DNA of 64,000 bases. Origin: an uncultured Bacilli bacterium (lineage in GTDB: Bacteria > Bacillota_I > Bacilli_A > RF39 > UBA660). Positions 3,356-23,561 of the stretch are shown here, one piece after another. Below the pieces are notes generated by a model. The model saw nothing but the letters and a program-made list of their open reading frames with translations, searched no databases and was not told the DNA's origin. The position numbers and the translations under genes are program-made. The stretch lies in contig CALWAL010000001.1 of assembly GCA_944373145.1 (NCBI GenBank), positions 1-64,000 on the forward strand, given 5' to 3'. The number at the start of each line of letters is the position of its first letter. Position 1 is the first letter of the stretch.

Positions 3356-3540
3356 TGGCATTCTCCCTCCCTATTTCAATTAATTTTATTTTCTTTGATA
3401 AGGCCTCCAATTCAACTTATTTATATCATACCTATTTAATAAAATATAGGGTGGGATTATCACCTCTTACTAAAAAGACTTAAAAATACGATATTTTTAT
3501 CGTTTTTACTCAATTTCAGTCAATTTTCACATAAAATAGT

Positions 3541-20510: not shown

Positions 20511-20545
20511 AAAATAAAAGGAATATCAGAATAAACAGATATTCC
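20511..20545 (-). terminator. Terminator of the bacteriocin operon
   Basis: GGAATATC (20538-20545 on the minus strand) pairs with GATATTCC (20520-20527), followed by TTTTATTTT. The hairpin includes the last codons and stop of the small membrane protein gene. Confidence 0.8.
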
Positions 20546-20696
20546 CTTCAGCTACATAGCGAGCAACTGTACCTAAATAACGTCCAAGGTTAAGCAAAAT
20601 ATGCGAACCAAATGTTACTAAAAAGAAAGCAATAAGGTAGGCAAAAAAATATGAAATGAATTTTAAAATTTTATTATTACTAATTAAATGGAGCAT
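20526..20696 (-). CDS. Small membrane protein, candidate bacteriocin immunity
   Basis: A 56-residue protein: a basic N-terminus, a hydrophobic segment (FISYFFAYLIAFFLVTFGS, about 13-31), and a C-terminal 22 residues that share the motif GRxxGxxxRxxxxGNxC exactly with the mature part of the precursor at 20684. It has no double-glycine leader, so it is not secreted by the same route. Position last in the bacteriocin operon and size fit an immunity protein; copying the toxin's own motif suggests it competes for the target or pairs with the toxin. Its ATG (20696) lies 13 bases inside the preceding gene, with only a weak RBS (AAGTGG), so translation is probably coupled. Confidence 0.6.
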   Translation of the reverse strand: MLHLISNNKILKFISYFFAYLIAFFLVTFGSHILLNLGRYLGTVARYVAEGNICLF

Positions 20697-20848
20697 TTAT
20701 TACCACTTATAAGTCTTCGCAGCGCAGAGCCAACACTTCTTCCCACATCTAAAAAAACGCTTACGCCTCTTACAATTGCATTTATTAAGGTTGCTGTAAT
20801 TGCACCACCAGTAATATTCAATAATTGTTCTTTACTTAATTCTTTCAT
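20684..20848 (-). CDS. Bacteriocin precursor B, double-glycine leader
   Basis: A 54-residue precursor. MKELSKEQLLNITGG is a textbook double-glycine leader (Leu, Leu, Ile at the conserved positions before GG), cleaved by C39 peptidases like the one encoded upstream. The mature 39 residues are cationic and amphipathic (AITATLINAIVRGVSVFLDV), with a GxxxG motif in GRSVG and an end RRLISGNKCSI that has the peptide's only Cys. ATG 20848 follows AGGAGGTTTT. It lies 8 bases after precursor A, consistent with a two-peptide (class IIb-like) bacteriocin. Size and leader are secure; activity is inferred. Confidence 0.8.
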   Translation of the reverse strand: MKELSKEQLLNITGGAITATLINAIVRGVSVFLDVGRSVGSALRRLISGNKCSI

Positions 20849-20856
20849 AAAACCTC

Positions 20857-20997
20857 CTAATTACATTTAAGTGGTCTAAGATATCCATCAATAACTCCAA
20901 CTATAAATGATATCCCCATTGGTAGAAAAGCCAATAATGACGTTGAAATTCCTCCACCACTTATCTTTTTTAATTCATCATGTGTTAATTGTTTCAT
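20857..20997 (-). CDS. Bacteriocin precursor A, double-glycine leader
   Basis: A 46-residue precursor. MKQLTHDELKKISGG is the double-glycine leader. The mature 31 residues (GISTSLLAFLPMGISFIVGV and on to LRPLKCN) are hydrophobic, with a GxxxG motif in GVIDG and one Cys two residues from the end, as in precursor B. ATG 20997 overlaps the TGA of the accessory-protein gene in an ATGA junction, and AAAGGA lies upstream. The tight coupling with transporter and accessory genes supports a real bacteriocin gene despite its small size. Confidence 0.8.
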   Translation of the reverse strand: MKQLTHDELKKISGGGISTSLLAFLPMGISFIVGVIDGYLRPLKCN

Positions 20998-21440
20998 TGT
21001 CTCAGTCCTTTCTTAATTTTTTTCATAATATCTTTATATAAGGTTGTTTCTTTGTATAAAAATCTTAAAGTTAATCTATTATTTTCTATTTTCATTTTAG
21101 GTTCTAATTCAACGTTTAAAACAATGCGCCAATACTCAGTATTTCCTGAGTCATAAGAGTATTCTTCAATAGCTACTATATCGTACTTTAAAACTTCATT
21201 ATTAATCATAACTTTATTTTCTGATTTTTTAGTAAAAAAATCTTTATTTGCATAAAATTCCACATAATTATTTTTAACAATACCAATATAAGTTAAATAA
21301 GTCTTATATTTAAATAAAGTTGAATAACTAATAAATACCAAAAAGCTTACAATTAAAATACTTACCCAAGAGTAAATCTTAAATGGTGTTCTACTCATTC
21401 CTTTAATGTTTGAATAATTATAAATATCAATACTATCCAT
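20994..21440 (-). CDS. Short HlyD-like bacteriocin secretion accessory protein
   Basis: A 148-residue protein with one N-terminal membrane helix (IYSWVSILIVSFLVFISYST, about 22-41), then a small beta-rich domain (about 45-140). This is the topology of HlyD/LcnD-type accessory proteins but without their long coiled-coil hairpin; normal members are 2-3 times longer. ATG 21440 follows AAGGATG and overlaps the transporter stop by 8 bases. It ends in an ATGA overlap with precursor A. I place it as the accessory subunit by context; sequence similarity alone is weak. Confidence 0.6.
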   Translation of the reverse strand: MDSIDIYNYSNIKGMSRTPFKIYSWVSILIVSFLVFISYSTLFKYKTYLTYIGIVKNNYVEFYANKDFFTKKSENKVMINNEVLKYDIVAIEEYSYDSGNTEYWRIVLNVELEPKMKIENNRLTLRFLYKETTLYKDIMKKIKKGLRQ

Positions 21441-23508
21441 GACGTATAACATCCTTATATATGCATCCATCTTTTATTTGAACATGATGATTAAATAAGT
21501 CGCCATTATCTAATCGGTGTGAAATAACAATAATAGTTTTATTGTTATAACGCATAAATATCTTTTTCAAAATTCTTCTTTCCATGTCTGTATCAACTTG
21601 GCTTAATCCCTCATCAATTATTAAAATATTAAATGGTCTTATAAGAGCACGTGCTAAAGCAATTCGCTGTCGCTCACCACCTGACAAATTAAAGCCGTTT
21701 TCTTCAATTAACATAAAATAGCCTAAGTTATTATTTTTTATAATATCATCAATTTCACATAATATAAAAATATCATTAAGTTTTTTAGAATCAATTTTAT
21801 CATTTAAAGTAATATTATTATATAAAGAATCAGTAAATAAAAATTCTATCTGATTTATATATATAATATCTTTACTACTTTGATAATCATTTATATCTTT
21901 ATCTCCTATCTTAATACAATTACGCTTAACAGAATAATATTTTTTCAACAATTTAAGTAAAGTACTTTTCCCACTTCCACTTTTCCCTATTAACAGTACT
22001 TTTTCTCCTCTCTTTATTGTCAAATTAATGTTCTTTAAAATAGTTGTAGTTTTATTATAAGTATAACTTAAATTTTTAAATTCAATATCACCGTTCATCG
22101 GTATATTAAGATATCCAATACGCTTTTCTTCAATAAATAATTCTTTTAATCTAATTATAGCTTTGTTCATATTTTTAGTATCAGCATCCAAATCAACTAA
22201 TTCGCGTACAGGAGTTAAAAAATAATTCATAAGGCTTTGGAAGGTCAATAAAACTCCTAATGTCATAGTTTCTTTATTAACTGCACAACAACCTAAATAA
22301 AAAATAACTAAATAACCACCATTTTCAATTAATTCTTTAAAATAATTTTCTAAAATAGATATTTTTTGAAATTTATGTAAACTTGTTAAAAAAATATTTT
22401 CTTGGTTATCAATATTTGCTCTAATTTTTTCTTTAATACTCAACCCTTTAATAGTTTCGAAAGCATTAATTGCTTCAATTTGATTAGATGTTAAAGTCGA
22501 ATTTTCTTTATGACATTTTGTAATTACATTTTCTAAGGGGTGATGAAATATTTTTAATATAATCCAATATAAAAAGAAGATTATAAGAGTAATGAGTGCT
22601 AAAGAATAATTAATTTTAAAAAGGATAATAAATGATATAAGCATTAAAGGTAAATCAACAATCCAAATCATAATCCATTTACTCAAAGTATCTCTAATAA
22701 TAGTGATATCTTTAATTCGAGCTAAAATATCACCAGTACTATGATTTCGATAGTAGCTATAGGGAAGTGATAAAATTTTATTGAAAGAATCTGTTGTTAT
22801 CATTAATTCCATGCGTTGAGTAATATAAATAAAAATAATATTTCTAAAATACTCACTTGTTATTTTTATAATTGCTATAATTAGAAAAAATACAAATAAA
22901 CAGGTTAGATAATTTATTTCTAGAAATAAATTATCTAATAAAATTTGACTATAAAATGATATTACAACAGAATAAATAATAACAAATGTTGATAAAAAGA
23001 AAATATTAATAAAAAAAGATTTATTATGATACACAAGAGGAAAAAAATCACTCCAATTAATTGTTGTTTTATTCATAAATGGGATTTTAGTTTTGGGGTA
23101 TAGTAGTAGAATAAATCCATTATATATTAAATTAAATGAATCGAATGATATCTTCTTTAATTTATCAGCGGGGTCAGCTACAAAAATTTCTTTTTTTCGA
23201 TAATTAATATCATAAATAACAACGAAATGTGTAAATGATTTATTAATAACAACATTTGCAATTAAGGGAAAATTTACTTTTTCTGTTTCAAACTTGTCTA
23301 AAGGACATTCATAGCCCTTAGCTTCAAAGCCAATTTTTTTTGCACCTTCAATAATATGATAAGCAGAGGTTCCGTCTTTGCCAACATTGACTAATTCACG
23401 AATCTTTTCTATATTTAAATAGCCTCCATAATACTTAATAATCATTGATAAACACGACGCTCCACAATCTTTTATATTTTCTTGCTTATCAAACGGAAAT
23501 TTTTTTAT
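21433..23508 (-). CDS. C39-peptidase ABC transporter for bacteriocin
   Basis: A peptidase-containing ABC transporter (about 691 residues) that cuts double-glycine leaders and exports the peptides. Domains: C39 peptidase (about 1-135; catalytic Cys in QENIKDCGASCLS at residue 15, His94 in FTHFVV, Asp112 in VADPA), six-helix membrane region (about 155-440), ATPase with Walker A GKSGSGKST, signature LSGGERQR and Walker B ILIIDEG. The first ATG (23445) would remove the catalytic Cys. The frame continues to ATA 23508, which lies at ideal distance behind GGAGGTGATAAA; no ATG, GTG or TTG occurs between. It is the first gene of the operon. Confidence 0.85.
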   Translation of the reverse strand: MKKFPFDKQENIKDCGASCLSMIIKYYGGYLNIEKIRELVNVGKDGTSAYHIIEGAKKIGFEAKGYECPLDKFETEKVNFPLIANVVINKSFTHFVVIYDINYRKKEIFVADPADKLKKISFDSFNLIYNGFILLLYPKTKIPFMNKTTINWSDFFPLVYHNKSFFINIFFLSTFVIIYSVVISFYSQILLDNLFLEINYLTCLFVFFLIIAIIKITSEYFRNIIFIYITQRMELMITTDSFNKILSLPYSYYRNHSTGDILARIKDITIIRDTLSKWIMIWIVDLPLMLISFIILFKINYSLALITLIIFFLYWIILKIFHHPLENVITKCHKENSTLTSNQIEAINAFETIKGLSIKEKIRANIDNQENIFLTSLHKFQKISILENYFKELIENGGYLVIFYLGCCAVNKETMTLGVLLTFQSLMNYFLTPVRELVDLDADTKNMNKAIIRLKELFIEEKRIGYLNIPMNGDIEFKNLSYTYNKTTTILKNINLTIKRGEKVLLIGKSGSGKSTLLKLLKKYYSVKRNCIKIGDKDINDYQSSKDIIYINQIEFLFTDSLYNNITLNDKIDSKKLNDIFILCEIDDIIKNNNLGYFMLIEENGFNLSGGERQRIALARALIRPFNILIIDEGLSQVDTDMERRILKKIFMRYNNKTIIVISHRLDNGDLFNHHVQIKDGCIYKDVIRHG

Positions 23509-23561
23509 TTTATCACCTCCTACCTTATTATTATTTTTTGATTTATTATTTCCTTGTTCAA

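Follow-up and report, generated by a model that had tools for sequence, protein, structure and literature searches.

A class IIb-like two-peptide export operon conserved in the order RF39, often with a third protein homologous to one of its peptides

Bacteriocins are usually patchy, fast-changing accessory traits. The peptides of class IIb mostly lack cysteine; those of the gallocin subgroup have two each, joined in an intramolecular disulfide (PMC10100652). Short transmembrane immunity proteins are known for the class, for example CbnZ, BrcI and AbpIM (42, 53 and 55 amino acids, respectively), and the mechanism of class IIb immunity has been called a mystery (PMC6957408). For gallocin A, one proposal is that the immunity peptide resembles the bacteriocin peptides and thereby prevents assembly (PMC10100652). 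Gallocin A (GllA1/GllA2/GIP), brochocin C, thermophilin 13 and ABP-118 all combine two peptides with a small third protein whose likeness to them is proposed to give protection, and the operon described here, from an uncultured member of the order RF39, does so as well. The class IIb architecture is already known. Its order-wide fixation, a membrane-anchored homologue of one peptide and a pair of single-cysteine peptides are, to our knowledge, undescribed within the literature searched, which held nothing relevant on RF39 and bacteriocins together. The IIBacFinder catalogue (PMC12648078) may already list individual peptides.

The window, that is, the whole 64-kb stretch of DNA analysed, carries five closely packed minus-strand frames, T, D, A, B and C, within 20526-23508. 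The features of the locus are as follows.

23512..23521, minus strand: extended, perfect Shine-Dalgarno AGGAGGTGAT before the ATA start of T (from sequence; conserved in relatives)
21433..23508, minus strand: T, C39 peptidase-permease-ATPase (PCAT-type peptide exporter), 691 aa (Pfam domains, structure match)
20994..21440, minus strand: D, accessory protein, 148 aa (AlphaFold2, Foldseek)
20857..20997, minus strand: A, precursor peptide, 46 aa, GG leader, mature part GISTSLLAFLPMGISFIVGVIDGYLRPLKCN (conservation, purifying selection)
20684..20848, minus strand: B, precursor peptide, 54 aa, GG leader, mature part AITATLINAIVRGVSVFLDVGRSVGSALRRLISGNKCSI (conservation, purifying selection)
20526..20696, minus strand: C, 56-aa transmembrane-anchored homologue of mature B without a GG leader, proposed self-protection protein (hhalign)
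20515..20553, minus strand: possible intrinsic terminator after C (GGAATATC-loop-GATATTCC, then T-rich; by eye, unscored by the consensus scan)

A first-pass annotation had drawn this five-frame unit at the same coordinates, with junctions that overlap by 4-13 bases or leave an 8-base gap. Both points were borne out when recomputed from the sequence: T and D overlap by 8 bp, D and A by 4 bp and B and C by 13 bp, and a gap of 8 bp separates A from B. The annotation had also set the unit between two terminators. Visual inspection shows a hairpin with a following T-run downstream of the U32 gene and another downstream of C, neither of which was scored by the consensus scan. No promoter for the peptide operon was clearly found. 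Between C and rpsU there is a strong promoter-like site on the minus strand (TTGAAA-17-TATAAT with TG, 20467-20439), so rpsU probably has its own promoter.

The call of a C39-peptidase ABC transporter stands, with matches to Peptidase_C39 (1.4e-31), ABC_membrane (2.2e-36) and ABC_tran (2.2e-24) in Pfam and with Cys15, His94 and Asp112, the catalytic residues, invariant within the genus. The nearest solved structure is 4ry2, an "ABC-type bacteriocin transporter" (1.7e-102), and ComA is also among the nearest. T is the sole C39 protein of the 1.29 Mb genome. Against TIGR01193, the model for peptide cleavage/export ABC transporters, it reaches 386, below the curated cut-off of 523.85. It shares domain order and catalytic residues with PCAT1 and ComA, and it differs from them in having a non-ATG start in most of the genus and an adaptor shrunk to a transmembrane helix and a barrel.

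The start of T is unusual in itself. The frame reaches 23508 only if an ATA codon (23506-23508, minus strand) serves as the start; because the first ATG, at 23445, would cost the C39 domain its catalytic cysteine, the start was placed at the ATA. A sister species (L004) has ATG at this site, and across ten members of the genus the codon reads ATA, ATG, ACG, ACG, ATG, ATA, ATT, ATT, ATT and ATT, so that eight of the ten begin T one base off ATG, behind an extended Shine-Dalgarno. ATA, ATT or ACG starts were noted at 23506-23508 and in L005, L006, L008-L012 and L109. Outside the genus, T starts mostly with ATG, GTG or TTG, with a few more cases of ATA, ATT and ACG. Such a conserved non-ATG start suggests that translation of T may be kept deliberately weak in this lineage.

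Protein D had been described as HlyD-like, which holds weakly and at the level of the fold. Pfam gave no match for it. Its AlphaFold2 model (pLDDT 88) has one transmembrane helix, a small beta-barrel domain and a C-terminal helix, and Foldseek relates it to the adaptor (membrane fusion) proteins BesA, Spr0693 and MexA with probabilities of 0.82-1.00 and weak E values of 0.03-0.2; the higher-probability matches include barrel domains of these proteins. An HlyD-type adaptor consists of a transmembrane helix with beta-barrel, lipoyl and coiled-coil domains, whereas the model of D has the helix and barrel without a lipoyl domain or hairpin. D went undetected in part of the relatives examined.

A scan of the 64 kb for the GG-leader pattern found exactly two small ORFs that fit, A and B, compared to a mean of 0.125 and a maximum of 1 in 40 first-order Markov random sequences. 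The double-glycine leaders reported earlier are conserved in relatives, and the GxxxG motifs reported for the mature peptides (GVIDG and GRSVG) are present in the window. GxxxG is carried by 89 of 90 mature A and by all 91 mature B peptides. Residues G14, G15, F31, G34, D37, G38 and C45 of A are invariant over 28 sequences, as are G36, G40, R45 and C52 of B over 30, and the mature ends are nearly fixed (...GxxDGxxRPLKCN in A, ...GRxxGxAIRRxxxxxxC in B). Mature B has a mean net charge of about +2.8. The mature parts of A and B are as conserved as their leaders. Homology of mature A to mature B was considered and rejected, as the leader region alone matches.

A cysteine lies within the last five residues of all mature A and B peptides examined. 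Exactly one cysteine is found in 85 of 90 A and 83 of 91 B peptides, those of the window included, and this holds for both peptides in 77 of 90 loci. A single C-terminal cysteine in each is predicted to permit a disulfide between A and B.

Among genus relatives, synonymous exceeds non-synonymous change in all five genes, A, B and C included, with dN/dS of about 0.1-0.4 where it could be estimated. By this measure, all five frames are under purifying selection. The first-pass annotation had named precursor frames without a synonymous excess in relatives as one observation that would count against it; this test was run, and A and B passed. A adjoins B in nearly all loci examined. In two relatives a gene is inserted between them, one for a SAM methyltransferase (L099:5290-5973) and one for an N-acetylmuramoyl-alanine amidase (L094:4849-5922). 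Two other loci have a third GG-leader ORF (MKELENNELKEINGG...) between B and C (L137, about 3402-3540; L048, about 1680-1816), suggesting precursor duplication.

How does the pair compare to described bacteriocins? On the class IIb model TIGR03949 (cut-off 21.5 bits), the window's A and B score 15.6 and 19.6, both below, and three of the four relatives of A tested pass with 23.6-32.8 bits. With the lactobin A/cerein 7B family covered by this model, the locus has in common a GG leader, a glycine-rich helical mature peptide and paired genes; B of the window matches mainly in the leader, and the known clusters of that family are patchy while the present operon is order-wide. The lactococcin G/enterocin 1071 models NF038034/NF038035 give 23.8 for A and 15.8 for B, both below 37; at profile level A weakly resembles the beta peptide, and B the alpha peptide. 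The logic of GxxxG pairing is common to both systems. Unlike A and B with their C-terminal cysteines, lactococcin G has no cysteine, and its LagC-like immunity protein has no counterpart in the present operon. Nor does the pair fit the gallocin/brochocin subgroup, which is defined by two cysteines per peptide where A and B mostly have one C-terminal cysteine each. For B and C, no model of their own was matched in the libraries searched. What the locus does have of class IIb is two precursor genes side by side, GG leaders with a dedicated C39 ABC transporter, and GxxxG in both peptides. The first-pass reading of a two-peptide export operon is supported by these features together with the invariant catalytic residues, the conservation of the paired peptides and the relatives of A that pass the class IIb model.

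The 56-residue frame at the end of the operon had been called a small membrane protein. Protein C does have one hydrophobic, transmembrane-like segment and is modelled as a single long helix, but there is more to it, since its C-terminal half is homologous to mature B. Profile-profile comparison (hhalign) of B with C gives a probability of 95.9 and an E value of 5.2e-9. The profile score is 41.5, against 16.4 when the profile is reversed and no more than 14.9 in any of 100 column shuffles; shuffling and reversal together rule out a GxxxG composition artefact as the source of the similarity. This similarity is limited to the C-terminal halves, and the transmembrane part of C lies outside it. 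On profile evidence, C is thus a relative of mature B fused to a predicted transmembrane helix. Whereas GIP of gallocin A resembles its peptides by model structure and is modelled as a hairpin, C is homologous to B in sequence, has its own transmembrane helix and is predicted as one long helix.

In size, transmembrane segment and position, C fits class IIb as a candidate immunity gene. It was counted by ORF position, because the C profile also matches B and raw profile counts overstate C; counted in this way, 59 of the 89 loci have it, and inspection by eye adds a few. Where present, it mostly starts 13 nt before the end of B, an overlap that points to translational coupling of C to B. In about a third of the loci, those of six genus members included, A and B are retained but no C is detectable, so protection cannot depend on C alone. 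Distances of B and C remain correlated after allowing for T (partial r 0.42), which is suggestive only, given how short the peptides are. In the clade of the genus without C (L008-L012, as against L003-L007), the GR motif of B mostly reads GQ; the link is not strict, for L013 lacks C and has GR.

The distribution of the operon sets it apart from most known clusters. In a sample of the order, whose listed genomes all belong to the window's one family, the B profile was found in 226 of 241 genomes (94%); in a sample of the family, it was found in 265 of 291 genomes and 144 of 150 genera. A class-wide sample gave B in 43 of the 46 listed members of the window's family and, outside that family, just four partial, leader-only matches among about 300 genomes. 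Peptide A shows the same pattern. Of twelve genomes that lack B, two carry the transporter at the edge of a contig, so that B may be missing there through assembly, and in five the transporter likewise gave no match at the threshold. In two near-complete 0.8 Mb genomes from another family of the class, part of a 139-aa frame matches the leader part of both profiles (G387:C1:578344-578430 and G544:C5:1470-1556); it is possibly another GG-leader protein. Searching GTDB contigs for the motif GRSLG[TS]AIRR gave 84 stretches, 81 of which are relatives. These are labelled Bacilli, Bacillales, Mollicutes, Tenericutes, Erysipelotrichaceae, Firmicutes/Bacillota or plain bacterium, and among them are Candidatus Faecisoma, Onthousia and Pelethosoma. 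Candidatus Faecisoma has been placed in order RF39 (PMC8035907), which points to RF39 as the window's order too.

The first-pass annotation had proposed conservation of the cluster as a check, and T, D, A and B do keep the same order in ten genus relatives, before rpsU and yqeY and mostly behind a U32 peptidase gene; another genome from the genus yielded no match. Overall, rpsU follows B in 50 of the 73 loci with room for it. T and its neighbour yqeY have correlated distances (Mantel r 0.75), indicating vertical inheritance. From its distribution and divergence, the operon is a vertically inherited core locus, unlike a patchy bacteriocin island. A mobile or phage origin was rejected, as at the thresholds used no relatives were found in IMG/VR (B), the PLSDB plasmids (B) or the INPHARED phages (A).

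The explanation we favour, with a probability of roughly 0.5, is a conserved class IIb-like two-peptide export system that belongs to the core genome of RF39, an order of gut Bacilli with reduced genomes, and in which the third protein shields the producer through its likeness to B. T would cut the GG leaders off A and B and export both, assisted in most lineages by D as a shortened adaptor. Outside the cell, the GxxxG helices would bring A and B together, perhaps joined by a disulfide at the C-terminal cysteines, although the anaerobic gut disfavours such bonds, and the pair would enter the membranes of competitors. C, presumably made by translational coupling to B, would sit in the producer's own membrane and occupy the partner or receptor site of B, thereby stopping assembly of the A/B pair. 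The similarity of C to B, at the level of sequence, fits this idea of immunity by mimicry. The antibacterial action of A and B, by which a bacteriocin is defined, is an inference, and the pair is a candidate bacteriocin. Near-universal vertical presence, with mature parts conserved like the leaders, is unlike diversifying bacteriocins and counts against this explanation, as does the single long helix predicted for C in place of the hairpin modelled for the gallocin immunity peptide. One other account of self-tolerance, that producers are safe for want of UppP, the target of lactococcin G, was rejected: UppP is present in 46 of 50 member genomes, so a lack of this known target is not the explanation.

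The loci without C and the near-universal conservation stand against immunity by mimicry and would suit a shared signal or kin recognition about equally well. A serious rival is that A and B form a conserved pair for signalling or kin recognition, pheromone-like or acting on contact, that kills nothing, with C as an anchored form of the signal or part of a receptor. The vertical inheritance and conserved mature parts of A and B speak for it, as do weak matches of A to the ComC and VP1 pheromone models and the lone C39 exporter of the genome. However, the operon holds no gene for a receptor kinase or regulator, GxxxG peptides of 31-40 residues with TM-like helices resemble membrane partners more than classical pheromones, and relatives of A pass the class IIb model; we consider signalling possible, if somewhat unlikely. 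A bolder proposal is that A and B form a disulfide heterodimer, with the membrane-anchored duplicate as its control in the producer, used for kin discrimination or an envelope function and not for occasional warfare. This is an unlikely and speculative reading.

Another view would have A, B and C stay with the producer as a small envelope complex, such as a channel or surface layer, with T as the delivery route. An anchored C that shares the helix of B, C-terminal cysteines, which both peptides conserve and C often has, and conservation at the level of a core gene are all consistent with it, but GG leaders and C39 processing normally free peptides and C is not found in many loci, which leaves such a complex improbable. 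Least credible of all is the implication of the first reading that this is an ordinary class IIb bacteriocin cluster of strain-level, local importance. Its architecture is textbook; still, a mostly conserved locus in 94% of the order's sampled genomes, with no matches, at the thresholds used, in IMG/VR or in collections of plasmids and phages, already contradicts it.

We know of no cultured member of the window's order. More than 90% of the sampled species in this major uncultured gut order, with genomes near 1 Mb, keep the two-peptide system, and such retention indicates that the peptides earn their place in genomes that have shed much else. The sequence homology of B and C makes the question of class IIb immunity directly testable with three short peptides, even for an uncultured producer. 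If true, a core system built on a disulfide heterodimer would put the class IIb architecture to a new use, one that is fixed in an entire order. The operon looks like the order's core weapon or signal, and not like a stray antibiotic cluster.
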